A stretch of 32,231 nucleotides of DNA from Streptomyces pseudogriseolus (GTDB lineage Bacteria > Actinomycetota > Actinomycetes > Streptomycetales > Streptomycetaceae): NCBI GenBank assembly GCA_002154585.1, contig MUNG01000098.1, positions 1 through 32,231 on the forward strand. The letters run 5' to 3'. The position numbers were made by a program, and so were the translations under genes. Of this stretch, positions 9,407 through 24,017 are shown one piece after another. Below the pieces are notes generated by a model. That model ran no database searches. It was not told where the DNA came from and saw only the letters and a program-made list of their open reading frames with translations. Every line of letters begins with the position of its first letter. Within the stretch, counting starts at the first letter, position 1.

Positions 9407-9415
9407 CGCGCCGGC

Positions 9416-10789
9416 TCAGCGCACGCCCACCGCCGCGAGCGCCTTGCGCTGGCGCGGGGTCGGGCGGGCCGGGAAGTACAGGTAGCAGACGCCGCCGGTG
9501 CCGGAGACGACCTTCCCGGAGGCGTTGTACCGCTTGGTGCGCAGCCAGATGTTCTCCCACTCGCGCCGCTTGTAGATCCGGCGCACGGCCTCGTTGTCGT
9601 CCGAGGCGGGGTCGTTGGCGATCACGTCGCCGTCGGCGGTGAAGCCGATGACGGTCATCAGGTGCCCGGAGGTGCCGTAGCCCGCCCCCGTCAGCTCCTC
9701 CTTCAGGAACGACTGGGAGGTGATGGCCGGGATGCCCGCCGCGATCAGCGTCTCCAGGTCGGTCAGCGACCCCAGCCGGGTCACGACGCCCTGGAGGCCG
9801 GGGAAGGTCGCCGCGTAGGCCGCGTTGAACGGCCAGTTGCCGCACCCGGCGTACTGGTAGTCGTAGGTGTGGCGGGCAGCATGGCAGATCTGCGGGTCGG
9901 CGTAGGCCGGGTCGACCCAGGAGAGCTGCTCCTCGGTGAGCCGGCCGCCCCAGTACTCGATGATCATCTGCGAGGAGGTGGGGCTGCACCAGGCCTCGCC
10001 GCCGTTGTCGTACTCCGGGTACTGGCCCTTGTGGACCTCCTGCGAGTAGCGCGGGACGAGCAGTTCCCCGGCGAGTCCGGGCGTCGAGGCGGGGACGGTG
10101 AACCGGTCGGGGACGTCGGAGCCCATCACGCCGAGCCGCCACACGGTCGGGGTGAGGCGGGTGCCGGGGCGGCGGTACAGGGTGAGGCGCAGCCGGCAGG
10201 AGGCGAGGCGCAGCCCCGAGGCCGCGTCGTCGACGGCGAACGTGTCCGTCCAGACGCTGCTCTTCCCGTCGCCCTGGTCGTCCACGGAGGTGCGCCGGAT
10301 GTCGGCGTCGCCGGCCGCCCAGCGGCCCATCACGTACCAGGGGGTGTCCGTGCCGTCGGAGTACGTGCCCTTGAGCTCGACCTGGATCCAGGTGCCTTCG
10401 GGGGTGCGGGCGTTCCAGGAGGCGATCGCCTCGGTGGCGGGGACCGCGAAGCGGTGGACGGGCGAGGTCCAGGTCGCGTACTCCCAGGCGGCCGTGCGGC
10501 CGGTGTGCGGGTCGGTGTAGTCCGTGGTGCCGGCCGTCCTGGCGAGCACCAGGCCGGGGCGGACGCCGGCCACGGCACGGGTGCCGGCGGCGCTGCCGGA
10601 GCGCCAGTCGGTGTACGTGGTCCAGGCACGGTTGTCGACGGTACGGGCGGCGGCGCGCCCGGGCGCCGCGGGCCGGGTGGCGCCGACGGTCGGGACAGCC
10701 GCGGACGCCGTCGCCGCGCTTCCGGCGACGGTGGCGACGACCGCCGCGGCCAGAAGGGTTCTGCGGGACGGCAGTTCGGCTCTGCTCAT
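9416..10789 (-). CDS. Secreted C39-like (papain-fold) peptidase, putative Tat substrate
   Basis: A 457-aa exported protein. The N-terminus MSRAELPSRRTLLAAAVV carries a twin-arginine motif (SRRTLL) before the hydrophobic core, and cleavage is expected near residue 31. About residues 45-245 are a beta-rich domain with many Trp and Tyr and no assigned family. The C-terminal half is a peptidase_C39_2-type cysteine peptidase domain: catalytic Cys in GGEAWCSPTSSQMIIEYWG (C268), His in GTSGHLMTVIGF (H376) and Asn/Asp in DVIANDPASDDN. Substrate unknown; such proteins are usually extracellular. The ATG at 10789 directly begins the signal peptide, although the ribosome-binding site is weak. A longer upstream frame lacks a plausible signal. 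Confidence 0.85.
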   Translation of the reverse strand: MSRAELPSRRTLLAAAVVATVAGSAATASAAVPTVGATRPAAPGRAAARTVDNRAWTTYTDWRSGSAAGTRAVAGVRPGLVLARTAGTTDYTDPHTGRTAAWEYATWTSPVHRFAVPATEAIASWNARTPEGTWIQVELKGTYSDGTDTPWYVMGRWAAGDADIRRTSVDDQGDGKSSVWTDTFAVDDAASGLRLASCRLRLTLYRRPGTRLTPTVWRLGVMGSDVPDRFTVPASTPGLAGELLVPRYSQEVHKGQYPEYDNGGEAWCSPTSSQMIIEYWGGRLTEEQLSWVDPAYADPQICHAARHTYDYQYAGCGNWPFNAAYAATFPGLQGVVTRLGSLTDLETLIAAGIPAITSQSFLKEELTGAGYGTSGHLMTVIGFTADGDVIANDPASDDNEAVRRIYKRREWENIWLRTKRYNASGKVVSGTGGVCYLYFPARPTPRQRKALAAVGVR

Positions 10790-11102
10790 GGGCGGGGGAC
10801 CCCCAGGTGTCGGAGTCGGGACGGGACCGGTGCACGGCCGCCGGACGGTGCCCGTCCGGCGGATGGAGCGGGTGTGCGCCCCACTATGAACGCAGCCGGG
10901 CGGGTCCTGCCAGCATCCGGGCCGCGCGGCGTCGACCAACATGGGACTCGACCAATGGCGGAAGCACCGCAGGTGGGCGGCGTCCGGGGTGCCGCCGTCC
11001 GGGGCCTAGAGTGCTCCCGTCCGCCTTCCTTCACAGCCCCGGGAACCAGCCATTCACACGCTCGCCTCCCGCATCCGCCGGCTTGCTCCCTCGTGCGGCC
11101 CG
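10790..11102. promoter_or_regulatory. Divergent gap between the C39 peptidase and P-loop kinase genes
   Basis: This 313-bp gap should hold both promoters. On the plus strand TAGAGT (11007-11012) fits a -10 box, but no good -35 box is found 17-18 bp upstream. The TAG inside it is also the last in-frame stop before the kinase frame. On the minus strand I see no clear promoter. No additional gene is seen; the overlapping frames look like shadows. Confidence 0.4.
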
Positions 11103-11660
11103 GTGCGGCTCGTCGCCGTCGACGGGCACGCCGGGTCCGGGAAGTCGACGTTCGCGGCGCTGCTGGCCGAGGAGCTCGGCGGCGCCCCGGTGCTGCGCCT
11201 CGACGACATCGCCCGTCACGACGAGCTGTTCGACTGGACGGGGCGGCTGCGGGACGAGGTGCTCGGCCCGCTCTCCCGCGGCGCGACCGCGCACTACGCC
11301 CCTTACGACTGGCGCGCCCGCCGCCCCGGACCGCCGCGTCCGCTGCCGGCCGCGCCGGTGGTGGTGGTCGAGGGCGTCGGCGCCGGGCGCGCGGCGCTGC
11401 GCCCGTACCTGGCGCTGCTGCTGTGGATGGACGTGCCGCGTGCGGAGTCCTGGGCGCGGGGGCGGGAGCGGGACGGCGAGGAGCAGCGGGAGTTCTGGGA
11501 CGGCTGGGAGCGGGCGGAGCGCGCGCACTTCGCCGGTGATCCCTCGCGCCCCTTCGCGCACCTGCTGGTGCGGCAGCGGCGGCAGGGGTACGAGGTGGTT
11601 CCCGGGCCTGCCGGGACGGGTGAGGCGCCCTGTTCGATCACGTACGGTGACGGGTCGTAG
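11103..11660 (+). CDS. P-loop kinase, uridine-kinase-like
   Basis: A nucleoside/nucleotide kinase-like ATP-binding protein of about 185 aa from a GTG at 11103. The Walker A motif VDGHAGSGKSTFA lies at the very start. A phosphate-acceptor-like LRLDDIARHDELFDW follows, then VVVVEGVGAG and an Arg-rich lid (SWARGRERDGEEQREFWDGW). The pattern is that of Streptomyces proteins called uridine kinase; the substrate is not proven. The GTG start leaves only five residues before the first beta-strand motif and has no ribosome-binding site. The frame is open and protein-like back to an ATT codon at 11052, which may be the real, rare start and would add 17 residues (IHTLASRIRRLAPSCGP). The last in-frame stop is at 11007. 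Confidence 0.8.
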   Translation: MRLVAVDGHAGSGKSTFAALLAEELGGAPVLRLDDIARHDELFDWTGRLRDEVLGPLSRGATAHYAPYDWRARRPGPPRPLPAAPVVVVEGVGAGRAALRPYLALLLWMDVPRAESWARGRERDGEEQREFWDGWERAERAHFAGDPSRPFAHLLVRQRRQGYEVVPGPAGTGEAPCSITYGDGS

Positions 11661-11721
11661 CCGATGTGGTGATCCTGTGAAGAGCGGCTTCGGACAAGTT
11701 GCCGCAGTCGCCCAACTCGGC

Positions 11722-11826
11722 TTGACCGAGGGCCCGTACAGGTCTTACGTTCTCAATGTGCGGCCCTTCGGGAGCCGCCGGCAGACGCGAAGCCCCCGGT
11801 TGTTCCCCCGTGATCGGGGGCTTCGT
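11722..11826 (+). ncRNA. Candidate small RNA or attenuated leader with its own promoter
   Basis: TTGACC (11722-11727), an 18-bp spacer and TACGTT (11746-11751) make a convincing promoter, with a start predicted near 11757. The transcript would fold a UUCG-capped hairpin (about 11760-11778, GCGGCCC/GGAGCCGC) and then an 11-bp terminator stem (11788-11798 with 11815-11825) followed by a pyrimidine-rich run. The product would be about 70-75 nt. An ATG sits at the predicted start (11756), but the peptide it opens looks non-coding. The rest of the 451-bp gap (11661-12111) shows no other gene. It may be a free small RNA or an attenuator ahead of the AAA+ gene at 12112. Confidence 0.5.
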
Positions 11827-12111
11827 TCTGCCCTTTTCACGCTTTCCGGGCGCACAGCGGCATATGACGATCACCCTCGGTGAGGATCACCTTCCGCGCG
11901 CCTCCCACGCGCCCCCTTTCCCTCTCCGTTTCACCTGCTCCGCACCCTGCGGACGCGGCGCCCCCGCAGGTACGATGCCCTCGGTGCGACCGGCGACGAA
12001 GCTTCGCGCACCTTGCAACTCCGGTCCGCGGCACAGCGGTTCGGCCACAGGGCGCCGGCGGCCGAGGGGCCGGCCGGCACACCGACGGGGGCACGGTTTG
12101 TGGGGGACGTG

Positions 12112-13965
12112 ATGGACTTCGGCGCGCAGGCCCCGGCCGACCTCGCCTGGCTGCGGGGCGTGGACGCGTACGCGATGGGCGCCTATCCGCAGGCGGAGGA
12201 GGAGTTCCGGACCGCCGTACGGATCGACCCGGGAATGGCCGACGGCTGGCTCGGGCTGCACGCGCTGCGCGTCGACACGACGACCGCGCTGCTGCGGATG
12301 TTCCGCCACCGCGACCGCTTCGGCGAGCAGCGCACGCGGCACGACCGCACCCTCAACTCCTGGTACTGGCTGGGCTGGTGGGTGCAGCCCGTCCTGGAGA
12401 CCCCGCGCGACCTGCTGCTCGCCCACGCCTCGCACTGGCTGGACGGGCGGCACGTCCCCGAGCTGGACCGCGCGCTCGCCGGACTGCCTCCGGTGGACGC
12501 CGACCCGCAGGTGCGCTTCCTGCACGCCTGCCGCGCCTACCTCGTCAAGGACTGGGAGCAGCTGGTCCGGCACACCGACCCGCTCGTCGACGACCCGCTG
12601 CTGGGCATCGAGGCGGGCCTGTTCGGCGGCATGGCCCGGGTGCGCCTGGAGATGTACGGGCAGGCGGAGCCGCTGCTGGCGGCGGCACTGATGCGGTGCC
12701 GCAGCGAGCAGCCGCAGCGCAAGGAGCTGCGCTACTGGCTGGCGCGCGCCCGTGAGGGCACGGGCCGCAGCGCCGCCGCGCTCCCCCTGTACCGGGCGGT
12801 GCACCGGGTCGATCCGGCCTTCATGGACACCGCAGCCCGGCTCGCGGCGATCGCCGAGGGCGACGGCTACGACGACTCCGCCGACCTGGCCGCGATCACC
12901 CTCACCGGTGCCGGGCAGGACGCCGTGGACGGCCCCGACACGCTGGACCCGCTGTTCGGGACGGAGGGCCGCGACCTGCGGCTGTCCGACGCGGACCCCG
13001 TCCCTCCGCCGATGCCGTCGTTCGGCGGGTCCGGGGTGCGCGAACGCTCCGGCGGTTCGGGCCCGGTGCTGCCGGCGGGGCCCACCGACCCGGCGCTGCT
13101 GGAGGAGGCGCTCGCCGAACTGGAGCGCATGGTCGGCCTGGAACCGGTGAAGCGCCAGGTCAAGGCGTTGTCCGCGCAGCTCAACATGGCGCGGCTGCGG
13201 GCCGGCCAGGGGCTGCCGGTGCAGCCGCCGAAGCGGCACTTCGTCTTCTCCGGCCCCTCCGGCACGGGCAAGACCACCGTCGCCCGCATCCTCGGCCGGG
13301 TCTTCTACGCCCTCGGACTGCTCGGCGGCGACCATCTGGTGGAGGCCCAGCGGGCGGACCTGGTCGGCGAGTACCTCGGGCAGACGGCGGTGAAGGCCAA
13401 CGAGCTGATCGACTCCGCGCTCGGCGGGGTGCTCTTCGTCGACGAGGCCTACTCCCTGTCGAACTCGGGCTACGGCAAAGGCGACGCGTACGGCGACGAG
13501 GCGCTCCAGGTGCTGCTGAAGCGGGCCGAGGACAACCGCGACCACCTGGTGGTGATCCTGGCCGGCTACCCGGAGGGCATGGACCGGCTGCTGGCGGCCA
13601 ACCCCGGGCTGTCGTCCCGTTTCACCACCCGCGTCGACTTCCCCTCGTACCGGCCGCTGGAGCTGACGCGGATCGGCGAGGTGCTTGCCGCGGAGAACGG
13701 CGACGTGTGGGACGAGGAGGCCGTGGACGAGCTGCGCTCCATCGCCGGGCACGTGGTGGACCAGGGGTGGATCGACGAGCTGGGCAACGGCCGGTTCCTG
13801 CGCACCCTGTACGAGAAGAGCTGTGCCTACCGCGACCTGCGGCTGTCGGCGTACCCGGGGCCGCTGTCCCGGGAGGACCTGGCGACCCTGCGGCTGCCGG
13901 ACCTGATGCAGGCGTACGGGGAGGTGCTGTCGGGGCGGGGCCCGTCGGACCCGTCGGGGCCGTAG
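12112..13965 (+). CDS. EccA/CbxX-like AAA+ ATPase with N-terminal TPR-like domain
   Basis: A 617-aa cytoplasmic ATPase. Residues 1-280 are helical, TPR-like repeats (e.g. DAYAMGAYPQAEEEFRTAV, ALPLYRAVHRVDPAFMDTA). A Pro/Gly linker follows (about 295-335), then a CbxX/CfqX-type AAA+ domain: ERMVGLEPVKRQV, Walker A GPSGTGKTT (381-389), Walker B GGVLFVDEAYSL (about 439-450), LVVILAGYPEGM and the arginine-finger segment NPGLSSRF (497-504). The same architecture occurs in EccA of type VII (ESX) secretion, but no other ESX gene is present here. A longer frame opens at 12013; the ATG at 12112 has GGGGGA close upstream, with a GTG one codon earlier as an alternative. Confidence 0.88.
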   Translation: MDFGAQAPADLAWLRGVDAYAMGAYPQAEEEFRTAVRIDPGMADGWLGLHALRVDTTTALLRMFRHRDRFGEQRTRHDRTLNSWYWLGWWVQPVLETPRDLLLAHASHWLDGRHVPELDRALAGLPPVDADPQVRFLHACRAYLVKDWEQLVRHTDPLVDDPLLGIEAGLFGGMARVRLEMYGQAEPLLAAALMRCRSEQPQRKELRYWLARAREGTGRSAAALPLYRAVHRVDPAFMDTAARLAAIAEGDGYDDSADLAAITLTGAGQDAVDGPDTLDPLFGTEGRDLRLSDADPVPPPMPSFGGSGVRERSGGSGPVLPAGPTDPALLEEALAELERMVGLEPVKRQVKALSAQLNMARLRAGQGLPVQPPKRHFVFSGPSGTGKTTVARILGRVFYALGLLGGDHLVEAQRADLVGEYLGQTAVKANELIDSALGGVLFVDEAYSLSNSGYGKGDAYGDEALQVLLKRAEDNRDHLVVILAGYPEGMDRLLAANPGLSSRFTTRVDFPSYRPLELTRIGEVLAAENGDVWDEEAVDELRSIAGHVVDQGWIDELGNGRFLRTLYEKSCAYRDLRLSAYPGPLSREDLATLRLPDLMQAYGEVLSGRGPSDPSGP

Positions 13966-13977
13966 GACCGCGACGGG
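13950..13977. terminator. Weak bidirectional hairpin between the AAA+ and CNNM genes
   Basis: A 7-bp perfect stem (13950-13956 with 13971-13977, 14-nt loop) spans the AAA+ stop codon in the 34-bp convergent gap. It is the only terminator-like structure available to both genes. Confidence 0.4.
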
Positions 13978-13999
13978 CGTACCGACGTGAGGCCCCCGG

Positions 14000-15076
14000 T
14001 CAGGTGGCCATCGCCTCCTCCGGCGTCCCGCTCGCCCGCTGCGGGGTGAGCGTGACCTCCCGGTGGGCGGGGTCGCGCACCTCGCCGACGAGCATCTCCA
14101 GCACGTCCTCCAGGGCGACCAGTCCCAGCACCTTGCCGGACACGTCCGACACCTGGGCCAGATGGGTGGCCGCGCGGCGCATCACCGTGAGGGCGTCGTC
14201 CAGCGGGAGTTCGGGACGCAGGGTCGTCATCGGGCGCCACAGCCGCTGCGGGACGGCCCGGTCGGCGTCCTCCAGGTCCAGGACGTCCTTGACGTGCAGA
14301 TAGCCCATGAAGGCGCCGCCCTCGGCGGCCACCGGGAAGCGCGAGTACCCGGTGCGGGCGGTCAGCTCCACGATCTGCCCCGGTGTGACCGCCGGGGTGA
14401 CCGTCACCAGGGTCTCGCGGCGCAGCAGGACGTCCGTCACCGGGCGCGAGCCCAGCTCCAGGGCGTCCTCCAGGCGCTCCGCCTCCTCCGGGTCGAGCAG
14501 GCCGGCCTGGCCGGCGTCCTCCACCAGCCGGTTGAGCTGCTCGCTGGTGAAGACGGCCTCCACCTCGTCCTTGGGCTCCACGTGGAAGAGCCGCAGGACG
14601 CCCTGGGCGCAGGCGCCGAGGGCGACGGTGACCGGCTTGCACAGGCGCGCGAACCACACCAGTCCCGGGCTGAGCCACAGGGCCGCCTTCTCGGGCGCGG
14701 CCATCGCCAGGTTCTTCGGGACCATCTCGCCGATGACGAGGTGGAAGAAGACCACGGCGGCGAGCGCGATGACGTAGCCGAGCGGGTGGATCACCCCGTG
14801 CGGCAGGTGCATCCACGCGAACACCGGCTCGAGCAGCTTGGCCACGGTCGGTTCGGCGACCGCGCCCAGGGTGAGCGAGCAGACGGTGATGCCGAACTGG
14901 GCGGCCGCCATCATGTGCGGCAGATGCTCCAGGCCGTACAGCACCTGGCGGGCGCGGGCGGTGCCGAGCGGTTCGATCTGGCTGCGGCGGACCGACACCA
15001 GGGCGAACTCGGCGCCGACGAAGAAGCCGTTGGCGAGCACGAGCAGTGCGGCGAACAGCAGTTGCAGGACGCTCAT
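14000..15076 (-). CDS. CNNM/hemolysin-C-like membrane protein without a CorC_HlyC tail
   Basis: A 358-aa DUF21 (CNNM) plus CBS-pair protein. The N-terminal membrane domain (about 1-180) starts with LLFAALLVLANGFFVGAEFA and includes the family signature AAVVFFHLVIGEMVPKNLAM. The CBS pair (about 205-335) includes SRFPVAAEGGAFMGYLHVKD and GLVALEDVLEMLVGEVRD. It ends shortly after the second CBS domain, lacking the CorC_HlyC domain found in its upstream neighbour. Relatives are implicated in magnesium/divalent cation efflux or resistance; hemolysin is a historical name. The ATG at 15076 overlaps the upstream gene's stop by 4 bp, so the pair is translationally coupled and may form a heterodimer. 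Confidence 0.9.
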   Translation of the reverse strand: MSVLQLLFAALLVLANGFFVGAEFALVSVRRSQIEPLGTARARQVLYGLEHLPHMMAAAQFGITVCSLTLGAVAEPTVAKLLEPVFAWMHLPHGVIHPLGYVIALAAVVFFHLVIGEMVPKNLAMAAPEKAALWLSPGLVWFARLCKPVTVALGACAQGVLRLFHVEPKDEVEAVFTSEQLNRLVEDAGQAGLLDPEEAERLEDALELGSRPVTDVLLRRETLVTVTPAVTPGQIVELTARTGYSRFPVAAEGGAFMGYLHVKDVLDLEDADRAVPQRLWRPMTTLRPELPLDDALTVMRRAATHLAQVSDVSGKVLGLVALEDVLEMLVGEVRDPAHREVTLTPQRASGTPEEAMAT

Positions 15077-16404
15077 CCGGCGGCCTCCGCGAGAGGCGCC
15101 CGGGCCGTGCGGACCAGGCGGACGCGTTCGGCGCGGTAGTGGCCGACCCGGCGCACCGACAGCCGCCAGCCCGGCAGTTCCGTGCGGTCCCCCACGGCCG
15201 GGATCCGGCCGAGCAGATCGGCGACCAGGCCGGCCACCGTCTCGTAGGGGCCCTCGGGGACCTCCAGTCCTATGCGGCGCAGCAGGTCGACCCGGGCGCC
15301 GCCGTCGACGTCCCAGGCGGGGTTGCCGTCCTCCGGCGGGGCCGGGGCGAGTTCGGGCACGTCCTGTCCGTCGTGCTCGTCGCGCACCTCGCCGACGATC
15401 TCCTCGACGATGTCCTCGAGCGTGACGACGCCGGCGGTGCCGCCGTACTCGTCGACGACGACCGCGATGGGCTGCTCGCTGCGCAGCCGGGTGAGCAGCG
15501 GGCGCACCGGCAGGGTCTCGGGGACCAGCAGCGCCGGACGGGCGATGCGGGCGACCGGGGTGCGCAGCCGTTCGTGCGCGGGGACGGCGAGGGCGTCCTT
15601 GAGGTGGACCATGCCGGCGATCTCGTCGATCCGCTCCCGGTACACGGGGAAGCGGGACAGGCCGGTGGCGCGAGTGAGGTTGACGACGTCCTCCGCGGTC
15701 GCGGAGGCCTGGAGGGCGCTGACCCGCACCCGCGGGGTCATGACGTGCTGGGCGGTCAGCTCGCCCAGGGACAGGGTGCGGACGAAGAGGTCCGCCGTGT
15801 CCTGTTCGAGGGCGCCCGCGCGGGCGGAGTGCCGGGCCAGGGAGACCAGCTCGCCGGGGGTGCGGGCGGAGGCGAGCTCCTCGGCGGGCTCGACGCCCAG
15901 GGCCCGCACGAGCCGGTTGGCCACGGCGTTCAGTCCGGCGATGACCGGTCGGAACAGACGGGCGAAGGCGTGCTGCGGGCCGGCGACGAAGCGCGCGACC
16001 TGCATCGGCCGGGACACCGCCCAGTTCTTCGGCACGAGCTCGCCGATCACCATCTGCACGGCGGAGGCGAGCAGCATGCCGATCACGACGGACACGCCGG
16101 GGACCGCGCCCTCGGGCAGGCCGGCGCCGGTGAGCGGGCCGTCCAGCAGCTGGGCCAGGGCCGGTTCGGCCAGCATGCCGACGACCAGGGAGGTGATGGT
16201 GATGCCGAGCTGGGTGCCGGAGAGCTGGAACGACAGTTCACGCAGGGACGCGACGACGCGGTGGGCGCGCCGGTCGCCGGCCGCGGCGGCCTCCTCGGCG
16301 TCCGCCCGCTCGACGGTGACGAGGCCGAACTCGGCGGCCACGAAGAATCCGTTGGCCAGGATCAGCAGGAACGCGGCTGCGAGAAGCAGCAGGGGGGTGC
16401 TCAT
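15073..16404 (-). CDS. CNNM/hemolysin-C-like membrane protein with CBS and CorC_HlyC domains
   Basis: A 443-aa protein of the same family as the next gene downstream. A DUF21 membrane domain (about 1-195: LLLAAAFLLILANGFFVAAE, MVIGELVPKNWAVSRPMQVA) is followed by a CBS pair (about 215-345: RFPVYRERIDEIAGMVHLKD, VVDEYGGTAGVVTLEDIVEE). A C-terminal CorC_HlyC domain (about 355-435) completes it. All parts expected of the family are present. A role in divalent cation transport is inferred from the family. ATG at 16404. It is the first gene of a two-gene operon (4-bp overlap). The upstream gap to 16554 shows no clear promoter; its centre has a short AT-richer patch. Confidence 0.9.
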   Translation of the reverse strand: MSTPLLLLAAAFLLILANGFFVAAEFGLVTVERADAEEAAAAGDRRAHRVVASLRELSFQLSGTQLGITITSLVVGMLAEPALAQLLDGPLTGAGLPEGAVPGVSVVIGMLLASAVQMVIGELVPKNWAVSRPMQVARFVAGPQHAFARLFRPVIAGLNAVANRLVRALGVEPAEELASARTPGELVSLARHSARAGALEQDTADLFVRTLSLGELTAQHVMTPRVRVSALQASATAEDVVNLTRATGLSRFPVYRERIDEIAGMVHLKDALAVPAHERLRTPVARIARPALLVPETLPVRPLLTRLRSEQPIAVVVDEYGGTAGVVTLEDIVEEIVGEVRDEHDGQDVPELAPAPPEDGNPAWDVDGGARVDLLRRIGLEVPEGPYETVAGLVADLLGRIPAVGDRTELPGWRLSVRRVGHYRAERVRLVRTARAPLAEAAG

Positions 16405-16553
16405 GGTGCCGCCGCCTCCGCATGCGCGCCCACCGGGCGGTGAGCGCTATGTCGGCAGGGGGCGGCGCAGGTACTGCAGGACGATCCGTCCATCGCCGGA
16501 GAGGGTCACTCCTCGGATAGCTGGGGCCCCTCGGCGCACCGGGCGGGGCGGCA

Positions 16554-16586
16554 GGGGCGGAGGCGCTGTCGGCGCGCCTCCGCCCC
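16554..16586 (-). terminator. Terminator of the PH-domain gene
   Basis: A perfect 12-bp stem (16554-16565 with 16575-16586), with a 9-nt loop, lies 72 bp downstream of the PH-domain gene's stop on the minus strand. It closes the long rib-his array. Confidence 0.75.
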
Positions 16587-16658
16587 ACAGATTAATCAAG
16601 ACAGGGGCGACTGCGGCAGGTCCGTTTTCCACGACGCGACGGTGACGGATGTCTCGCG

Positions 16659-17120
16659 TCAGTCGCGGGGCGCCTCGGCCTCGGGCGCGGAGTGCGCCTC
16701 GGCGAGGGCCCGCAGCGCGCGGGCGTCGGCGACCGCGCGCTGCCGGGCGATGCCGGGCTGGATGCCGAGCGCGGGCAGGCTGGTGCCGTCGCTGAGGTCG
16801 AGGAAGACCCAGGGATCACCCGAGCGGAGGTTCACCTGAAGGATTTCCGCCCACTCCAGACGGCGCCGGTGCACGATGTTGACGACCGTGACGCCCGTCC
16901 CGTCGGCGACGACCTTCGGCCGGGCCAGCAGGAACAGCACACCGGCCAGCAGCGCGGCGGTGAACACGAAGCTGATCCGCTCCCCCGGGCCGAGCCCGTT
17001 CAGGAGCAGCCCGATCAGGCTGACGACGACGAACAGCGCGACGCCCGCGGTGAGCAGCACGGCGCGGGTGCGGCCGGGCCGGAACGTGACGGGCAGCGCC
17101 GGGAGTTCGGTGCCGGACAC
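16659..17120 (-). CDS. PH domain-containing membrane protein
   Basis: A 153-aa protein with two adjacent transmembrane helices (about 19-42, LLTAGVALFVVVSLIGLLLN; 49-66, FVFTAALLAGVLFLLA). A compact bacterial PH-like domain follows (about 70-130: GTGVTVVNIVHRRRLEWAEI and the short WVFLDLSDGTSLPALG). The tail is Ala/Glu-rich. Such proteins follow hisG in many Streptomyces; the role is unknown. The start is a GTG at 17120. Its ribosome-binding region includes an uninterrupted run of nine Gs (minus strand) just after the hisG stop, 17 bp away, so expression is probably coupled to hisG. Confidence 0.85.
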   Translation of the reverse strand: MSGTELPALPVTFRPGRTRAVLLTAGVALFVVVSLIGLLLNGLGPGERISFVFTAALLAGVLFLLARPKVVADGTGVTVVNIVHRRRLEWAEILQVNLRSGDPWVFLDLSDGTSLPALGIQPGIARQRAVADARALRALAEAHSAPEAEAPRD

Positions 17121-17128
17121 GGTGGTGG

Positions 17129-17137
17129 CCCCCCCCC
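17129..17137. other. Nine-base C/G homopolymer at a gene junction
   Basis: An uninterrupted C9 on the plus strand (G9 in the mRNA) lies between the hisG stop (17138) and the GTG of the PH-domain gene (17120). It also serves as that gene's Shine-Dalgarno-like region. Length changes by slippage would alter spacing but not a reading frame. Confidence 0.7.
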
Positions 17138-17986
17138 TCAGAGACGGCAGGCGTGGATCGCCGTGGTGAGGATGGCGCGGGCCCCGATGTCGTACAGGTC
17201 GTCCATGATGCGCTGTGCCTCCTTGGACGGGACCATCGCGCGGACGGCGACCCAGCCCTCGTTGTGCAGCGGCGAGACGGTCGGGGACTCCAGGCCGGGG
17301 GTCAGGGCGACGGCCTTCTCCAGCTGCTCGACCCGGCAGTCGTAGTCCATCATCACGTACGTGCGGGCGACCAGGACGCCCTGGAGGCGGCGCAGGAACT
17401 GCCGCACCTTGGGGTCCTCGCCGTCGGTGCCGGTACGGCGGACGACGACGGCCTCGGAGGTCATGATCGGGTCGCCGACGACTTCCAGGCCCGCGTTGCG
17501 CAGGGACGTGCCGGTCTCGACGACGTCCGCGATGACCTGGGCGACGCCGAGCTGGATGGCGGTCTCGACCGCGCCGTCGAGGTGGACGACGGAGGCGTCG
17601 ATGCCGTGCTCCGCGAGGTGCGCGGCGACGATGCCCTCGTAGGAGGTGGCGACGGTCTTGCCGGCGAGATCGGCGGGAGTGGTGACCGTGCCGGGCTTCG
17701 CGGCGAAGCGGAAGGTGGAGCGGGCGAAGCCGAGCGGCAGGATCTCCTCGGCGTCGGCTCCCGAGTCGATCAGCAGGTCGCGGCCGGTGATGCCGATGTC
17801 CAGCCGGCCGGAGGCGACGTAGATCGCGATGTCGCGGGGGCGGAGGTAGAAGAACTCGACCTCGTTGACCGGGTCGACGATCCGCAGCTCCTTGGACTCC
17901 CGCCGCTGCTGGTAGCCGGCCTCATGCAGCATCTCCGCCGCAGGGCCTGACAGGGAACCCTTGTTGGGGACGGCGATGCGCAGCAT
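17138..17986 (-). CDS. hisG: ATP phosphoribosyltransferase (long form)
   Basis: A 282-aa enzyme for the first, feedback-regulated step of histidine synthesis (ATP + PRPP to phosphoribosyl-ATP). The N-terminus MLRIAVPNKGSLSGPAAEML and the motifs RPRDIAIYVASGRLDIGITG and GAVETAIQLGVAQVIADVVE are the HisG catalytic domain. Residues after about 205 form the extra regulatory HisG_C domain (LEKAVALTPGLESPTVSPLH, VAVRAMVPSKEAQRIMDDLY) of the long form, which does not need HisZ. ATG 17986 has AAAGGAAG upstream. It follows hisE by 46 bp on the same strand, and the remaining his genes are not in this window. Confidence 0.97.
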   Translation of the reverse strand: MLRIAVPNKGSLSGPAAEMLHEAGYQQRRESKELRIVDPVNEVEFFYLRPRDIAIYVASGRLDIGITGRDLLIDSGADAEEILPLGFARSTFRFAAKPGTVTTPADLAGKTVATSYEGIVAAHLAEHGIDASVVHLDGAVETAIQLGVAQVIADVVETGTSLRNAGLEVVGDPIMTSEAVVVRRTGTDGEDPKVRQFLRRLQGVLVARTYVMMDYDCRVEQLEKAVALTPGLESPTVSPLHNEGWVAVRAMVPSKEAQRIMDDLYDIGARAILTTAIHACRL

Positions 17987-18032
17987 GAGGTCGGCTTCCT
18001 TTGCGTGAAGGGGTGGGCGGGGCGGGGGTCTT

Positions 18033-18305
18033 CTACAGGTGGGCGTAGACGTCGTCGAGGGAGATGCCGCGGGCGACCATCATCACCTGGACGTGGTACA
18101 GCAGCTGCGAGATCTCCTCGGCGGCCGCCTCCTTGCCCTCGTACTCGGCGGCCATCCAGACCTCGGCGGCCTCCTCGACGACCTTCTTGCCGATGGCATG
18201 GACGCCCTTGTCCACCAGCTCGGCGGTGCGGGAGGTGGCGGGGTCCCCGTGGGCGGCCTTGTGCTGGAGCTCGGTGAAGAGCTCCTCGAACGTCTTCTTG
18301 GACAT
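18033..18305 (-). CDS. hisE: Phosphoribosyl-ATP pyrophosphatase
   Basis: A 90-aa all-helical MazG-like enzyme that hydrolyses phosphoribosyl-ATP to phosphoribosyl-AMP, the second histidine step, in the cytoplasm. It shows [20 protein letters not shown] followed by [20 protein letters not shown] and [18 protein letters not shown], the acidic metal-binding core of the family. Length is typical. A longer frame reads to 18470, but the ATG at 18305 with AAGGA upstream is the family start. It lies 34 bp after ribH and 46 bp before hisG, so it joins the riboflavin and histidine genes. Confidence 0.96.
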
Positions 18306-18339
18306 GGTGGTCCTTACCCTACGCGGTGACGGGGACTGC

Positions 18340-18825
18340 TCACCGCCAGGGTTCGGACACCGAGCGCAGGCATGCGGCGGTGGCGACGGCCGCGGTGACC
18401 GCCTCGTGGCCCTTGTCCTCGCTGGAACCGGGCAGTCCGGCCCGGTCGAGGGCCTGCTCCTCGTTGTCACAGGTGAGCAGACCGAAGCCGACGGGCACTC
18501 CGGTGTCGACGGACACCTGGGTAAGTCCCTGGGTGACGCCCTGGCACACGTAGTCGAAGTGGGGTGTGCCGCCCCTGATGACGACGCCGAGGGCGACGAT
18601 CGCGTCGTAGCCCCGGCCGGCCAGGACCTTGGCGACGACGGGCAGTTCCCAGCTGCCGGGGACCCTCAGCAGGGTCGGCTCGTCGATGCCGAGGTCGTGC
18701 AGGGCGCGCAGCGCGCCGTCGACCAGGCCGTCCATCACCTTCTCGTGCCACTGTGCCGCGACGACGGCGACCCGAAGATCACCCACGTTGCGTACCGTCA
18801 GCTCCGGTGCACCCTTGCCGCTCAC
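18340..18825 (-). CDS. ribH: 6,7-dimethyl-8-ribityllumazine synthase
   Basis: A 161-aa lumazine synthase, the beta subunit of riboflavin synthase, which condenses the pyrimidine and the four-carbon phosphate into dimethylribityllumazine. Visible motifs are [53 protein letters not shown] (with the catalytic His) and [18 protein letters not shown]. The start is a GTG at 18825 with GAGGAG upstream; much longer frames in the track are readthrough. It lies 20 bp after ribAB. A 7-bp hairpin (18323-18329 with 18340-18346) covers its stop codon and may partly terminate before hisE. Confidence 0.96.
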
Positions 18826-18845
18826 GTCTCTCCTCGTGGTTCTCG

Positions 18846-20132
18846 TTACTGGTTGCCGCAGGCGGGCACGGTCGGCGTGTCCAGCCAGGGCAGGTCGTGG
18901 CCCATCCGGTCCCGCTTGGTGCGCAGGTAGCGGAGGTTGTGCTCGCTCGCGGTGACGGGCATCGGCTCGCGCCTCAGGACGTCGATGCCGTGGCGGGCGA
19001 GCGCGTCGGACTTGTCGGGGTTGTTGGTCATCAGGCGGACGCTGCGGACGCCGAGGTCGGCGAGGATCTGCGCGCCGGCCGCGTAGTCGCGGGCGTCGGC
19101 GGGCAGGCCGAGCTCCAGGTTGGCGTCGAGGGTGTCGCGGCCGCGCTCCTGGAGTTCGTAGGCGCGCAGCTTGGACATCAGGCCGATGCCGCGTCCCTCG
19201 TGGCCGCGCAGGTAGACGACGACGCCCCGGCCCTCCTGCTGGATGCGGTCCAGGGAGGCGTCGAGCTGGGGGCCGCAGTCGCAGCGCTGGGAGCCGAAGA
19301 CGTCGCCGGTGAGGCACTCGGAGTGCATGCGGACGAGGACGTCCGCGCCGTCGCCGAGGTCGCCGTGCACCAGCGCGACGTGCTCGACGCCGTCGGCGGT
19401 GGAGCGGAAGCCGTACGCGGTGAACGTGCCGTGGGCGGTGGGCAGCCGGACCTCGGCCTCGCGGCGGACGGTGGGCTCGCTGCCGCGCCGGTAGGCGATC
19501 AGGTCCTCGATGGAGATGATCGACAGGCCGTGCTTGCGGGCGAACGGGACCAGTTCGGGCAGGCGCAGCATGCGGCCGTCCTCGCCGGCGATCTCCACGA
19601 TGGCGCCGGCCGGGCGCAGTCCCGCGAGGCGGGCGAGGTCGACGGCGGCCTCGGTGTGGCCGTCGCGCTCCAGCACGCCGCCGGGGCGGGCGCGCAGCGG
19701 GAAGATGTGGCCGGGGCGGACGAAGTCGTCCGGCCCGGCGGTGCCGCCGGCCAGCAGCCGGAGGGTGGTGGCCCGGTCGGAGGCGGAGATGCCGGTGGTC
19801 ACGCCGTGCGCGGCGGAGGCGTCGACGGTGACGGTGAACGCGGTGCGCATCGACTCGGTGTTCTGCGCCACCATCTGCGGGATGCCCAGCCGGTCGAGCT
19901 CCTCGCCCGTCATGGGGGCGCAGATCATGCCGCGGCACTCGGTCATCATGAAGGCGACGATCTCCTCGGTCACCTTCTCGGCGGCGACGATCAGGTCGCC
20001 CTCGTTCTCCCGGTTCTCGTCGTCGACGACCACCACGGGGCGGCCGGCGGCGATGTCGGCGATCGCCTGCTCGACGGGGTCGAGGCGGAGGCCGAGGTCC
20101 TCGGCGTCGTAAAGGACAGGTGCCGTGCTCAT
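18846..20132 (-). CDS. ribBA: Bifunctional DHBP synthase / GTP cyclohydrolase II
   Basis: A 428-aa two-domain enzyme supplying both riboflavin precursors. The N-terminal RibB domain (about 1-210) has the metal/substrate loop [31 protein letters not shown] and [20 protein letters not shown]. The C-terminal RibA domain (about 215-420) has the zinc cysteines in [40 protein letters not shown] and [16 protein letters not shown]. Both active sites look complete. ATG at 20132 with AGGAG upstream. The start overlaps the stop of the transporter gene by 4 bp, indicating translational coupling in the rib operon. Confidence 0.96.
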
Positions 20133-20770
20133 GCGGGCGCTCCTTCCAGTGCGGGCCGCGCGTCGCGGGAGCGCAGCCACCAGTCGCGCATGCCCCACAG
20201 GACGAGCGCGCCGTAGATGACGTAGACGAAGCCGGAGAAGGCGAAGCCGTTGGCGAAGTTCAGCGGGACGCCGACGAGGTCGACGAGCAGCCAGGCGAAC
20301 CAGAACTCGACCATGCCGCGCGCCTGGGCGTACATCGCGACGACCGTGCCGACGAAGATGTAGGCGTCCGGCCAGGGGTCCCAGGACAGGGACGGGTAGG
20401 CGGTGAAAAGGCCTCCGACGGCGAGGGTGCCGAGGGCGGCCCCGGCGAGCAGCGCGCCCCGCTCCCGCCAGGTCGCGAACCGTACGGCGACGGAGCCGTC
20501 CTGCGCCTGCCGCCGGCCGCGGTTCCACTGCCAGAAGCCCCAGGCGGCGACGAGCATGACGACGACCTGCTTGCCGGCGCTGCCGGAGAGGTGGGCGGTG
20601 GCGAACGCGGTGAAGAGGATGAGCCCGGAGAGGAACTGGGCGGGCCAGGTCCACAGGGAGCGGCGCCAGCCGAGGGCGAGGGCGATCAGGCCGATCACGT
20701 TGCCGATCATGTCCGACCACTTGATGTGCTGGTCGAACAGGGTGAAGGCCTCGGAGTTGAGCCAGTTCAC
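20129..20770 (-). CDS. ribM: Riboflavin transporter of the PnuC/RibM family
   Basis: A 213-aa polytopic membrane protein. About six or seven hydrophobic helices are visible (e.g. [76 protein letters not shown]). Trp-rich PnuC features such as [12 protein letters not shown] and the [14 protein letters not shown] tail are present. PnuC homologues usually carry nicotinamide riboside. Members inside actinobacterial rib operons (RibM of S. davawensis, PnuX of Corynebacterium) import riboflavin, and the context here (riboswitch, between ribE and ribBA) supports that. GTG start at 20770 with GAGGAGG upstream. It overlaps both neighbours by 4 bp. Confidence 0.9.
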
Positions 20771-21381
20771 CGGGAGGCCTCCTCGCCCGCGACGCGGTCG
20801 CCGAGCATCCGCTCGACGTACTTGGCGATGACGTCCACCTCGAGGTTGACCGGGTCCCCGGGCTTCTTGATGCCGAGGGTGGTCAGGGCGAGGGTGGTGG
20901 GGATGAGGCTGACGGTGAAGTGGTCGCGCCCGGCGTCGACGACGGTGAGGCTGATGCCGTCGACGGTGATGGAGCCCTTCTCCACGACGTAGCGGCTCAG
21001 GTGCGCGGGGAGGGAGATCTTCACGATCTCCCAGTGCTCGGACGGGGTGCGGTCGAGGATCTCGCCGGTGCCGTCGACATGGCCCTGCACGATGTGGCCG
21101 CCGAGGCGGTCGCCCACGGCGGTGGGCCGCTCGAGGTTGACGCGGGAGCCGACGGCGAGGGCGCCGAGGCTGGAGCGGTTCAGGGTCTCCGCCATGACGT
21201 CGGCGGTGAACTCGTCGCCCTCGTGCTCGACGACGGTGAGGCACACGCCGTTGACGGCGATGGAGTCGCCGTGTTTCGCGCCCTGGGTGACCACGGGGCC
21301 GCGCAGCCGGAAGCGACAGGCGTCGCCGAGGGTCTCGACGGCGGTGATCTCGCCCAGCTCTTCGACGATTCCGGTGAACAC
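20767..21381 (-). CDS. ribE: Riboflavin synthase, alpha chain
   Basis: A 204-aa enzyme that dismutates two lumazine molecules into riboflavin. It has the usual two tandem lumazine-binding barrels. The first begins [15 protein letters not shown] with [20 protein letters not shown]; the second shows [29 protein letters not shown] and ending [20 protein letters not shown]. Family length. Start GTG at 21381 preceded by AGGAGG. A longer frame to 21543 is not protein-like and would run into the riboswitch. First gene of the operon, 119 bp downstream of the FMN riboswitch expression region. Confidence 0.96.
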
Positions 21382-21500
21382 TTCCCGGGTCCTCCTGCCT
21401 CTTCGGGCACGGACTCCGGGGCTGTCGATGACGACAGGAACACGGGCGAGGACACCGGGGGCGACGCCGGACGGGGTTCGCCCGAAGGACGAACCGGTAC

Positions 21501-21526
21501 GGCGGCGCGCATGGATGCCCGCCCGC
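21501..21526 (-). promoter_or_regulatory. Hairpin after the FMN aptamer (candidate expression platform)
   Basis: An arm pair of 12-13 nt (21501-21512 with 21514-21526, one bulge and one mismatch, GG loop) forms a strong stem directly 3' of the aptamer in the transcript. It is adjacent to the P1 strand at 21528-21534. It could terminate transcription when FMN is bound. There is no U-tract. Confidence 0.45.
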
Positions 21527-21527
21527 C

Positions 21528-21654
21528 GCGCACTGCCTCCCATCCGGACTTTAACCGTCGGTCCAGGAATTTCACCTGGTCAACCGGTCGCTGGAGGCGA
21601 CCGGGTCGCGGACTGTAACCGCCGGTTCGGACTTTCACCGACCCCGGAGTGCGC
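21528..21654 (-). promoter_or_regulatory. FMN riboswitch (RFN element)
   Basis: In the minus-strand transcript the conserved RFN blocks are seen in order: CGGTGAAAGTCCGAACCGGC, GGTTACAGTCCGCGACCC, a variable stem (GGTCGCCTCCAGCGACC), TTGACCAGGTGAAATTCCTG and GACGGTTAAAGTCCGGATGG. P1 is closed by GCGCACT (21654-21648) with AGTGCGC (21534-21528). It lies upstream of ribE and should reduce rib operon expression when FMN is plentiful. Confidence 0.95.
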
Positions 21655-21816
21655 TGCTACTGGTACAGCCCCAGTCTGCCACGGCCGTGACTCGGCCACG
21701 CGGGTGAGTGCTGTGGAGTGGGTCACAGCGCGCTACGTGGAGGCAACCGAGGGTCGCGCGATGCACAACTGCCCCGCTCGTGCGCCCCCTTGGCGCCCCC
21801 TCCCGCATCCGGCGAG

Positions 21817-21859
21817 TGATCCACGCCTATTGACCCAACTGGTCTAGTCCTCTTAGTGT
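21817..21859 (+). promoter_or_regulatory. Orphan chitinase-type promoter with DasR site
   Basis: TTGACC (21830-21835), an 18-bp spacer and TAGTGT (21854-21859), with a 12-mer TGATCCACGCCT (21817-21828) abutting the -35 and TGGTCTAGTCCT (21840-21851) in the spacer, reproduce the promoter at 6921-6961 almost base for base. ACTGGTCTAGTCCTCT (21838-21853) matches the DasR consensus at 14 of 16 positions, better than the first copy. No chitinase follows; the next gene (SDR, ATG 22034) starts 175 bp past the -10 box. Confidence 0.8.
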
Positions 21860-21878
21860 CCGAGCCACCTCCCAGACC

Positions 21879-21920
21879 GGCCCGGCGGCGGTGACGACGG
21901 CCCTTGCCCGCCGCCGGGCC
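21879..21920 (+). terminator. Perfect 13-bp terminator-like stem after the orphan promoter
   Basis: Arms 21879-21891 and 21908-21920 pair perfectly around a 16-nt loop, starting about 13 nt after the expected transcription start. A further 14-bp palindrome lies at 21949-21962. Its position suggests either the former chitinase's own terminator brought next to the promoter by a deletion, or an attenuator. No coding remnant is recognisable in 21860-22033. Confidence 0.6.
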
Positions 21921-22033
21921 TCACCACGCCGCCCGCGGATGCGCCCCGCGCCGGGCCCGGCGTAGCTTGATCCCGTACGGCGCCGTGCACGACTCCCCCC
22001 AGGGCGCCGGTGTCCGAAGGGACGTGAGCCAGC

Positions 22034-22792
22034 ATGACCTCGATCGTGGTGACCGGCGGCACCGGAACCCTCGGCCGCCCCGTCGTCGGGCGGCTGCGGA
22101 CGGCAGGCCACGAGGTACGGGTACTCAGCCGCAGCACCCCGCCCTACGCCGTCGACCTGCGCGAGGGCGGCATCGCGCTGGACCGGGCCCTGGAAGGCGC
22201 GAGCACCGTCGTGCACTGCGCCACCTCGGCGCGCGGCGGCGACGAACAGGCCGCGCGCAGCCTGATCACCGCGGCGCGGCGGGCCGGGGTGGAGCACCTC
22301 GTCTACATGTCGATCGTCGGCGTGGACCGGGTGCCGTACCCCTACTACCGCACCAAGCTGGCGGTGGAACGGCAGATCGAGGACTCCGGCATCGGCTGGA
22401 CGGTGCTGCGCGCCACCCGGTTCCACGACCTGCTGTACCGGCTGTTCCAGGGCATGTCGGCGTCGCCGGTGATGCCGCTGCCCGCCCGGGTGAAGGACCA
22501 GCCGGTGGAGGTCACGGAGGTCGCGGCCCGCCTGGCCGAGCTGGCCCAGGGCGCACCCGCGGGACGCGCCGACGACATGGGCGGCCCCGAGGTGCGCACC
22601 TTCGAGTCCCTGGCCCGCGCGTACCTCGCGGCGGCCGGCCGCCGCCGCGCGGTGGTGAAGATTCCGCTGCGCGGAGCGGCGTACGAGGCCTTCCGCGCCG
22701 GCGGCCACCTGGCCCCGGACCACGCGGTCGGCACGGGCACGTTCGAGGACTACCTGACGAAGCGGTTGGCCGTGACGGGGGCGCGCCGGTAG
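22034..22792 (+). CDS. NAD(P)-binding SDR/NmrA-like protein
   Basis: A 252-aa atypical short-chain dehydrogenase-type protein. The N-terminal Rossmann motif MTSIVVTGGTGTLGRPVVGR binds a dinucleotide. VYMSIVGVDRVPYPYYRTK has a YxxxK-like core, and RATRFHDLLYRLFQGM is typical of the NmrA/YcfL-type extended SDRs. Such proteins may be oxidoreductases or redox sensors; no substrate can be named. ATG 22034 has AAGGGA 12 bases upstream. It is the first gene downstream of the orphan chitinase/DasR-type promoter, so it may now be GlcNAc-responsive if the intervening stem is read through. It converges on the ROK gene. Confidence 0.82.
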   Translation: MTSIVVTGGTGTLGRPVVGRLRTAGHEVRVLSRSTPPYAVDLREGGIALDRALEGASTVVHCATSARGGDEQAARSLITAARRAGVEHLVYMSIVGVDRVPYPYYRTKLAVERQIEDSGIGWTVLRATRFHDLLYRLFQGMSASPVMPLPARVKDQPVEVTEVAARLAELAQGAPAGRADDMGGPEVRTFESLARAYLAAAGRRRAVVKIPLRGAAYEAFRAGGHLAPDHAVGTGTFEDYLTKRLAVTGARR

Positions 22793-22829: not shown

Positions 22830-24017
22830 TCAGTGCCCCGGCACCCCGAACAGTTCGTCCTGGGCGTGGTCGCGGGCCGTCAGGAGGGCGCCTCGGAGGA
22901 CCGCTCCTCCGCCCAGGGTGCTGGGGCGCACCTCGACGGGGAGCGGGGACATCGTGGTGAGGCGGTCCTGGACGCGGGCCGCCAACTCCGTGCCGCCCGC
23001 CTGGCCGAGCTCGCCGCCCAGGACCACGCACCCGGGGTCGAGCAGCGCGACCACGGAGGCGACGCCCACGGCGACCCGGTCGGCCAGGGTGTCGAGGAAA
23101 CGGGCGTGCGCCGGGTTCCCCGGGGCGGAGACGGCCGCCCGTACCGCGCCCGCCGCCTCCGGGCCGGCCCCGGGGTCCGGCGCGATGCCGTGCTCGGCCG
23201 CGAGCCGCGCGACCGCCGCCGCGCCGGCCAGGGAGTGGAAGCCGCCGGTGCAGTCGGTGGCCGACGGCAGGCCCCGGGTGCCCGGAACGGGGAGGAAGCC
23301 GATCTCGCCGGTGCCGCCGGAGGCGCCCCGGCGCAGGGTTCCGTCGAGGATCACGGCGGCGCCGGTGCCGTGGCCCAGCCACAGCAGCACGAAGGTGTCC
23401 CGGTCGCTCGCGGCCCCGTCGCGCTGCTCGGCGAGCGCGGCGAGATTGGTCTCGTTCTCGACGCTGACCCGGGCCTCGGGCAGCCGTTCCTGGAGCGCGG
23501 CGACCAGGCGCCGGTGCCACTCCGGCAGGCCGGTGGAGTCGCGGAGTTCGCCGGTCGCGGGGTCGATCAGGCCGGGCGCGCCGATGCCGACCGTGTGCAG
23601 CCGGTCGGCGCCCGCCTCCTTGGCCGTCCGCTCGACCAGGGCGACGGCCTGCTCGACCGCGGGTCCGGTGCCGGTGTCGTCGGCGATGGGCAGGGAGGCC
23701 TCGGCGAGCACCCCGCCGACCAGATCGGACACGACGAGGGCGACGCCCTCGGTGCGCACGTCCAGGGCGGCGAGGTGGGCGCGGCCGGCGACGATGCCGT
23801 AGAGCTTGGCGTTGGGGCCCCGGCGTTGGGCGCGGGCCTCGCCGGCGACCTCGATCAGTCCGGCGGCGGTGAGGCGTTCGACGAGGTCGGCGACGGTGGG
23901 CCGGGAGAGCCCGGTGAGCTCTTTCAACTGCCCGGCGGTCAGCGGGCCCTCATGCTGGAGCAGGCGCAGGGCGAGCCGGTCGTTGATGGCTCGGGCGGTG
24001 CTCGGGGATGCGGCCAT
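22830..24017 (-). CDS. ROK family transcriptional regulator without the ROK zinc motif
   Basis: A 395-aa regulator. An N-terminal winged helix (LTAGQLKELTGLSRPTVADL, then VERLTAAGLIEV) precedes a sugar-kinase-like ROK domain (about 90-395) with VGIGAPGLIDPATGEL and LLWLGHGTGAAVILDGTLRR. In ROK proteins the segment after GEIGH normally carries a Cys-x-Cys-Gly-x-x-Gly-Cys zinc site. Here it reads GEIGFLPVPGTRGLPSATDC, with the His replaced by Phe and only one Cys, so sugar kinase activity is unlikely. ATG 24017 has AAGGAT upstream. It is divergent from the MFS transporter, the likely target. The inducing sugar is unknown. Confidence 0.92.
   Translation of the reverse strand: MAASPSTARAINDRLALRLLQHEGPLTAGQLKELTGLSRPTVADLVERLTAAGLIEVAGEARAQRRGPNAKLYGIVAGRAHLAALDVRTEGVALVVSDLVGGVLAEASLPIADDTGTGPAVEQAVALVERTAKEAGADRLHTVGIGAPGLIDPATGELRDSTGLPEWHRRLVAALQERLPEARVSVENETNLAALAEQRDGAASDRDTFVLLWLGHGTGAAVILDGTLRRGASGGTGEIGFLPVPGTRGLPSATDCTGGFHSLAGAAAVARLAAEHGIAPDPGAGPEAAGAVRAAVSAPGNPAHARFLDTLADRVAVGVASVVALLDPGCVVLGGELGQAGGTELAARVQDRLTTMSPLPVEVRPSTLGGGAVLRGALLTARDHAQDELFGVPGH

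Follow-up and report, generated by a model that had tools for sequence, protein, structure and literature searches.

We found that positions 21817-21920 of a 32,231-nucleotide stretch of Streptomyces pseudogriseolus DNA (the window, by which we mean this whole stretch) retain a promoter with a predicted DasR site (dre) and a hairpin that in relatives lie at the two ends of a chitinase gene, the coding region of which is missing here. We consider it on balance probable that this locus is a DasR-controlled small-RNA gene made from a chitinase transcription unit, and the promoter and hairpin of the deleted chitinase, still joined, would probably make a tiny regulatory RNA.

Promoter, predicted DasR site and hairpin

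The features of the locus and its neighbours, with coordinates in the window, are as follows.

20770-21384, minus strand: ribE, riboflavin synthase, the divergent neighbour (Pfam Lum_binding in two stretches, E 1e-54)
21526-21656, minus strand: FMN riboswitch of the rib operon, our landmark for orthologous loci (Rfam RF00050, 98.8 bits)
21817-21828, plus strand: upstream 12-bp repeat, worn (TGATCCACGCCT), read from the sequence; many relatives have TGGTCCATACCT
21830-21835, plus strand: -35 box TTGACC, read from the sequence; TTGAC is exact in 57/60 units without the chitinase
21838-21853, plus strand: predicted DasR site (dre), 16 bp, ACTGGTCTAGTCCTCT, the same as the dre given for SCO1444 in PMC4398421 (Table 1)
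21852-21873, plus strand: leftover start of the chitinase transcript region (22 nt, 90.9% identity with locus L055, E 5e-5)
21854-21859, plus strand: -10 box TAGTGT, read from the sequence; TANNNT is present in 57/60 units without the chitinase
21866-21925 (both ends approximate), plus strand: predicted small RNA, placed from the -10 box and the hairpin
21879-21920, plus strand: hairpin with a 13-bp stem and a near-constant loop at 21892-21907 (TGACGACGGCCCTTGC), recognised by covariation and by the strand bias of its wobble pairs
22034-22792, plus strand: NmrA/SDR-like gene, a neighbour which probably lies outside the unit (Pfam NAD_binding_10 / NmrA)

The -35 and -10 boxes are separated by an 18-nt spacer, as read from the sequence, and the putative DasR site lies between them. 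This site agrees at 14/16 positions with the consensus A(G/C)TGGTCTAGACCA(G/C)T as printed in PMC4398421, and it is letter-identical to the published S. coelicolor dre of SCO1444 (chI), for which Table 1 of that paper gives ChIP-chip and EMSA binding entries. With a dre-like 16-mer inside its promoter, the locus would be placed in the DasR regulon on sequence grounds. The 11-mer TGGTCTAGWCC is by itself no better than chance, as it occurs 5 times in the 7.26-Mb genome versus 4 times for a reversed control; the position of the dre between the -35 and -10 boxes, beside the riboswitch and the hairpin, is repeated across dozens of species.

An earlier note on this DNA had listed the two boxes, a DasR-like site with 14 of 16 consensus positions and a perfect 13-bp stem starting 13 nt past the predicted start, all of which can be read in the sequence. 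It had also likened the promoter to that of the chitinase at 7033 (GH18 by Pfam), and the resemblance holds, with a like layout at 6920-6961 (spacer of 17 nt) and the 15-mer AACTGGTCTAGTCCT common to the two promoters. Its statement that both 12-bp repeats recur is true only loosely, the upstream one being worn and agreeing with the relatives' TGGTCCATACCT at 9/12 positions.

The arms of the hairpin (21879-21891 and 21908-21920) form a perfect 13-bp stem, beginning 13 nt past the predicted start at ~21866. The predicted RNA has a folding energy of -35.2 kcal/mol (z = -3.78), and none of 200 shuffles were as low. No run of T was found 3' of the stem, either in the window or in the units of relatives which were inspected, and the hairpin at 21879-21920 is not an intrinsic (Rho-independent) terminator in the sense of a G+C-rich stem with a U-tract. 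Many actinobacterial terminators lack a U-tract. No Rfam family matched positions 21780-22000 at E values up to 1 (4227 covariance models).

The core of the hairpin loop occurs as one exact copy in its own genome, and we rejected a repeat family as its source, since allowing 3 mismatches gave 4 further places versus 2 in the control. The 13-mer complement of the loop was found in the window's genome at the promoter-hairpin unit only. In eight genomes such complements gave 10 matches, 7 at the hairpin and 3 elsewhere (G147:C15:118820, G013:C1:1783571 and G197:C14:110881), compared to 16 for the reversed control, a comparison in which avoidance and base-composition effects are mixed together. 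No long antisense target is evident from the same counts in these eight genomes (3 versus 16), so any pairing would be by a shorter seed, or the loop would bind a protein.

Orthologous loci across the genus

We searched 199 genomes of the genus, 196 of which had a match, and took 120 loci via the riboswitch, making 121 with the window. These were mostly the best-ranked loci by similarity to the window (those of G015 and G004 came from a separate search), and so the share of units without a chitinase, 60/121 including the window, is inflated. Loci were first picked by hairpin likeness, accepting up to 3 mismatches in a 23-nt core, of which 0-2 were seen: 47 of the 60 units had none, 7 had one and 6 had two. 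Alongside these 60 loci with dre and hairpin we found 7/121 with a chitinase followed by a matching hairpin, 36/121 with a chitinase but without a hairpin that comes within 3 mismatches of the core, 1/121 with the hairpin alone (L078), 2/121 with the dre alone (L106 and L119) and 15/121 with neither on that strand. Three of the last group carry an inverted unit, leaving 12, and the 78 loci without a chitinase thus comprise 63 with both parts, 1 with only the hairpin, 2 with only the dre and 12 with neither. The 12-bp dre core is exact in 56 of the 60 units, with one mismatch in 3 and two in 1. Three units (L096, L104 and L134) have an intact dre and hairpin and lack TTGAC and TANNNT; here the dre may function independently of this promoter, or a different sigma factor may be used.

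In the chitinase-bearing loci the promoter seen in the units is placed ahead of the gene. Where a matching hairpin is present (7/43), its 5' arm lies 13-16 nt past the stop codon; in these seven loci the hairpin appears to be shared with the 3' end of the mRNA, as would be expected of a 3'-UTR-derived sRNA, and the chitinase mRNA would end at the hairpin. The earlier note had called the hairpin terminator-like, which suits this location and does not suit the missing T run. Among the other 36 loci, nine have a related hairpin in which the right half-loop GCCCTTGCC is kept and the left half is mostly different, two (L057 and L098) end ahead of the stop codon and 25 have other 3' sequences, many of them being different stem-loops by eye. 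The right half-loop is possibly a conserved element of chitinase mRNA 3' ends; it is kept, with variable left half and flanks, in the chitinase-bearing loci L090, L124, L127, L128, L130, L133, L149 and L150.

At E values up to 0.01, a model of the hairpin matched 69 of 147 genomes from the order, with 57 matches reaching 61.9 bits, all within the window's genus. Matches in two genomes from another family (G026 and G034, 38-41 bits) were set aside as chance, as they have different loops and no good dre. Among the best 20 matches, 11 have a dre no more than 400 nt away and lack an intact chitinase (including the window and the genome of L089), and in the other 9 (including the shortened gene of L289) chitinase sequence stops 26-29 nt ahead of the loop core, so forms with and without the chitinase are about equally common there.

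We also scanned a collection of 84,980 species for the loop pattern, which was found in at least 118 stretches; loci chosen in this way are silent on loop conservation and come partly from the same genomes as the orthologous set. The Streptomyces stretches (at least 96) include at least 79 with a dre within 400 nt and no chitinase, at least 11 with a chitinase and at least 6 others. In L177 and L240 the stretch starts no more than 105 nt from the hairpin, in L162 and L176 the riboswitch and hairpin are present without a dre, and L236 and L262 show neither riboswitch nor dre. S. griseofuscus DSM 40191 (L211) is among the strains with the unit. There were at least 22 stretches outside Streptomyces, and among the matches listed none of these had a dre.

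Loss of the chitinase gene

In S. coelicolor the gene adjoining ribE is, as we take it, the chitinase SCO1444, and gene order in the relatives agrees with an SCO1444-type chitinase adjoining ribE. SCO1443 is described as riboflavin synthase with an RFN element (PMC4681348). In the window no chitinase follows the promoter, as the earlier note had pointed out, and the rest of the genome, which is 99.6% complete in 773 contigs, yielded none of the SCO1444 type. Relocation of the gene was rejected, as a 443-residue piece of this chitinase matched only a 38%-identical chitinase at 7171-7851.

The earlier note had proposed a deletion whose ends could be mapped by alignment, and alignment with relatives placed the junction at ~21872-21876, at the end of the 22 nt which match the chitinase-bearing L055; this leftover match partly consists of the -10 box. 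Judging by dre-to-hairpin distances, ~2.36 kb is gone from the window relative to L055. Remnants of the chitinase unit are present in other loci: L089 keeps 100 nt of its 5' end and 212 nt of its 3' end (92% identity), and L053 and L086 keep 56-58 nt of its 3' end (86-89% identity). The presence of an SCO1444-type chitinase between the same two elements in relatives, the remnants in these three loci and the absence of the gene elsewhere together support the loss of the coding region at 21817-21920 by deletion, as judged by comparison.

Two loci, L089 (in G188) and L289 (in G232), look to be mid-way, with the middle of the chitinase gone, its ends recognisable and the promoter and hairpin intact. 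In L289 the shortened gene aligns with residues 1-135 and 489-771 of a chitinase of 771 residues, and a single open frame, no longer than 406 codons, lies between dre and hairpin.

From the 121 loci, 88 of the 90 genomes from which rpoB was taken were placed on an rpoB tree (G002 and G021 were left out as the motif used was missing). Across these 88 species at least 8 changes were counted between the states "chitinase" and "unit without chitinase", and, on the assumption that a lost gene does not return, midpoint rooting gives 24 chitinase-free subtrees, 20 of them with the unit, although these loss counts are rough, the tree being of a single gene with quick support. Neighbours on the tree may be in different states, for example L089 and L094. 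The two loci with only a dre sit among chitinase species with other 3' hairpins.

Conservation and covariation of the hairpin

Mean information in the hairpin was 1.71 bits per position, and 1.89 at 12 loop positions, compared to 0.18 in the upstream flank and 0.28 just downstream, a contrast which is favoured by the 3-in-23 mismatch limit, since this caps loop divergence. As a counterweight to picking by hairpin, just 2 dre-bearing loci without a chitinase lack it. The promoter stretch had 1.13 bits in units without a chitinase versus 1.69 in the 43 chitinase loci, so some relaxation after gene loss is real. Spacing from the dre to the hairpin core ranged from 34 to 316 nt among the 60 units and was exactly 35 nt in 14/60; at this spacing an RNA starting 6-7 nt past the -10 box would scarcely exceed the hairpin.

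Covariation was measured in 43 hairpins, hand-chosen from 91 distinct sequences (the pool of 163 repeats some species). Of all cells, 98.0% were paired, compared to 34-58% in slid controls. Cells altered on both sides (n = 17) were matched by 0/500 shuffles, as was the covariation score, while the further pair types were reached by 1/500 and the four pairs with double changes by 19/500. On the promoter's strand we counted 32 G-U versus 4 A-C cells in these hairpins, and 92 versus 7 in the 142 hairpins without an extra base (species repeated), although only 7 versus 3 when counted as distinct position and type; since wobble cells are interdependent, we rely on the direction of this bias and not on its probability. 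The excess of G-U over A-C indicates that the strand which folds is the strand read from the promoter. Taken as comparative evidence, the compensatory changes on the transcribed strand are those by which structured RNAs are recognised, and they show the stem to be maintained as an RNA read from the unit's promoter.

In 50/60 units the left part of the loop reads TGACGAC. At an rpoB distance of 0.10-0.15, units without a chitinase (48 units, 346 pairs) showed 0.12 edits per pair in this part, a low figure which the mismatch limit favours, compared to 3.37 edits per pair among the nine chitinase species whose hairpin is related (19 pairs). The loop was equally constant in the 7 chitinase loci with a matching hairpin (4 with TGACGAC and 3 with TGACGAA), so this constancy belongs to the hairpin lineage and not to gene loss.

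These patterns bear on whether the locus is a passive scar, in which promoter and terminator have simply not yet decayed and the terminator is kept only to stop an orphan promoter. A real deletion with remnants, a somewhat relaxed promoter and near neighbours on the rpoB tree with different states (L089 and L094 again) would all suit such remains. However, the dre and hairpin stay amid flanks which are hardly conserved, and the -35 and -10 boxes are kept in 57/60 units although decay of the promoter would have been the simplest solution. Nor does termination call for an invariant loop; other chitinase loci have variable 3' hairpins. We therefore regard a passive scar as unlikely. The earlier note's description of a "ghost" promoter is right in that the gene is gone and undersells a promoter which is conserved together with its hairpin and is sometimes inverted with it.

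The loop also lies in a frame starting with GTG, which would allow a short peptide to be encoded across the hairpin (GTG ACG ACG GCC CTT GCC CGC ...). Variants of the loop (ACG to AAG, GAG, GTG or ATG) nevertheless alter the residue, and several species have a frameshifting one-base insertion past the loop, so we give this reading almost no credence.

Neighbouring genes and orientation of the unit

We looked for three genes downstream of the hairpin, namely the SDR, sigma-70 family and ROK genes; where distances are larger, other genes may intervene. Of the 60 units, 24 have the SDR gene as the first one recognised, 17 the sigma gene and 18 a convergent ROK gene; none was recognised in L035, a stretch of 396 nt ending shortly past the hairpin. 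The sigma-70 family gene was identified by Pfam regions 2 and 4 in L003, and we take it to be SigJ-like. It comes and goes between the hairpin and the SDR gene in L038, L039, L044, L056 and others. In the window, a gene for a ROK-family regulator with a winged-helix domain (22830-24017, minus strand) faces the promoter-hairpin unit, and the adjoining of a likely sugar regulator and a DasR-type unit may be no coincidence.

In 3/121 loci the unit lies inverted between the riboswitch and the SDR gene, and at least 5 among the at least 96 Streptomyces loci found by loop pattern also have it inverted; this reverses its relation to both neighbours. Inverted promoter-hairpin units relative to the riboswitch were seen in L079, L080, L091, L161, L163, L166, L198 and L230. 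The unit would thus have a promoter of its own, independent of the neighbouring genes.

This arrangement weighs on two further explanations. The first, raised by the earlier note, is that the promoter now drives the SDR gene with the hairpin as its leader or attenuator. In the window the SDR gene does start 113 nt 3' of the hairpin on the same strand, and it is the first recognised gene in 24/60 units. It is however not first in 36/60 units, a sigma-factor gene being first in 17/60 and a convergent ROK gene in 18/60, and the unit can be inverted; as a general role for the promoter this explanation is disfavoured, and we hold it to be very improbable. The convergent gene lies within 213 nt of the core in 14 of the 18 units, which also speaks against the hairpin being an undecayed remnant.

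The second explanation is that the locus acts as DNA, the dre being a DasR decoy or a tuner of the divergent rib operon and the hairpin merely an insulator. Exact dre cores in 56/60 units, including the three without clear promoter boxes, would be expected of such a role, and the dre lies beside an FMN riboswitch in the 121 loci, although this is by search design. A stem with strand-specific wobble pairs and a near-constant loop is not what this role calls for, and the inversions in 3/121 and in at least 5 of at least 96 loci indicate that direction relative to rib is free. We consider a DNA-level role quite improbable, and the pure decoy suggested in the earlier note leaves the conservation of hairpin and loop unexplained. 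Among the options which that note had offered, a short RNA best fits the joint conservation of promoter and hairpin and the inverted units, as far as comparison of the loci goes.

Proposed origin and function

As the sequence comparison shows, loss of the chitinase coding region brought the promoter and the first bases of the leader directly ahead of the former 3' hairpin. In the small-RNA gene which we favour, DasR would repress the unit by occupying the site between the -35 and -10 boxes; in the presence of chitin or GlcNAc the repression would lift and an RNA of ~55-60 nt, stabilised by the stem, would accumulate. Its loop, TGACGACGGCCCTTGC in DNA letters, would then act on a partner, either pairing with mRNAs through a short seed or serving as a protein-binding site. 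Conservation of the right half-loop in nine chitinase loci, with the left half different in eight, suggests an older role for the hairpin, at the chitinase mRNA 3' end, pre-dating the loss of the gene. It should be noted that the hairpin may partly serve termination, and that it is found without a dre in L078, L162 and L176, which goes against the two parts always being retained together.

We put forward more tentatively, at somewhat less than an even chance, that the RNA gene has arisen repeatedly, in separate Streptomyces lineages, by removal of the chitinase coding region, the enzyme being expendable, unlike the promoter and the 3' hairpin, and the hairpin RNA signalling the availability of chitin to the remainder of the cell, and that the chitinase mRNA has a dual function where it is kept. 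If this is true, the genus has repeated a natural experiment in which an enzyme gene was stripped away while its control region and transcript end were selected, showing a route from protein-coding units to small-RNA genes. The chitin/GlcNAc network, which governs antibiotic production as well, would gain a second RNA under DasR control, and a regulatory 3' end would be suggested for the chitinase mRNAs themselves.

Comparison with known systems

Going by their numbers, the S. coelicolor sRNA scr5239 presumably adjoins SCO5239, and scr1434 presumably lies in the same chromosome neighbourhood as the 21817-21920 locus; by gene order we take window positions 7033-21384 to be the counterpart of SCO1429-SCO1443. 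That part of the window may contain a homologue of scr1434 (PMC3765725). In the passages of the literature consulted we found no published sRNA at our locus, although an unnamed entry may exist in sRNA lists (e.g. those behind PMC3765725 and PMC8780764). The available parts of three Streptomyces transcript surveys (PMC3765725, PMC8780764 and PMC4681348) do not name the locus as an sRNA, and those of an S. venezuelae chitinase study (PMC12370203) have no bearing on it.

The closest precedent for the regulation proposed here is scr5239, which northern blots and reporters established as a DasR-controlled sRNA and which acts in carbon metabolism, as described in PMC7025569. It has an upstream dre with the core TGGTCTAGTCCA (PMC4398421). 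The predicted RNA of our locus likewise stands behind a dre, as in scr5239, which DasR represses through its upstream site; in contrast to scr5239, with 159 nt and five stem-loops, it would have a single 42-nt hairpin in a predicted 60-nt RNA, beside ribE. In its stable stem-loop with a C-rich loop our hairpin resembles scr1434 / sar6912 / svr1031, an sRNA conserved in Streptomyces (PMC3765725). Compared by its description there, scr1434 differs in location, as it is named for SCO1434 on its right flank and belongs to another intergenic region, whereas our hairpin lies beside ribE.

With the SCO1444 (chI) unit of S. coelicolor our locus shares the identical 16-bp dre (PMC4398421), and with SCO1444-type units in relatives its promoter and, in 7 of those loci, its hairpin too, although the coding region which S. 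coelicolor has is missing here. As in the sRNAs from mRNA 3' ends described in PMC9438474, a 3' hairpin is predicted to be the body of the regulatory RNA. Those sRNAs, however, are cut from a living mRNA or started inside one, whereas at our locus the parent gene is gone and the promoter would make the hairpin directly.
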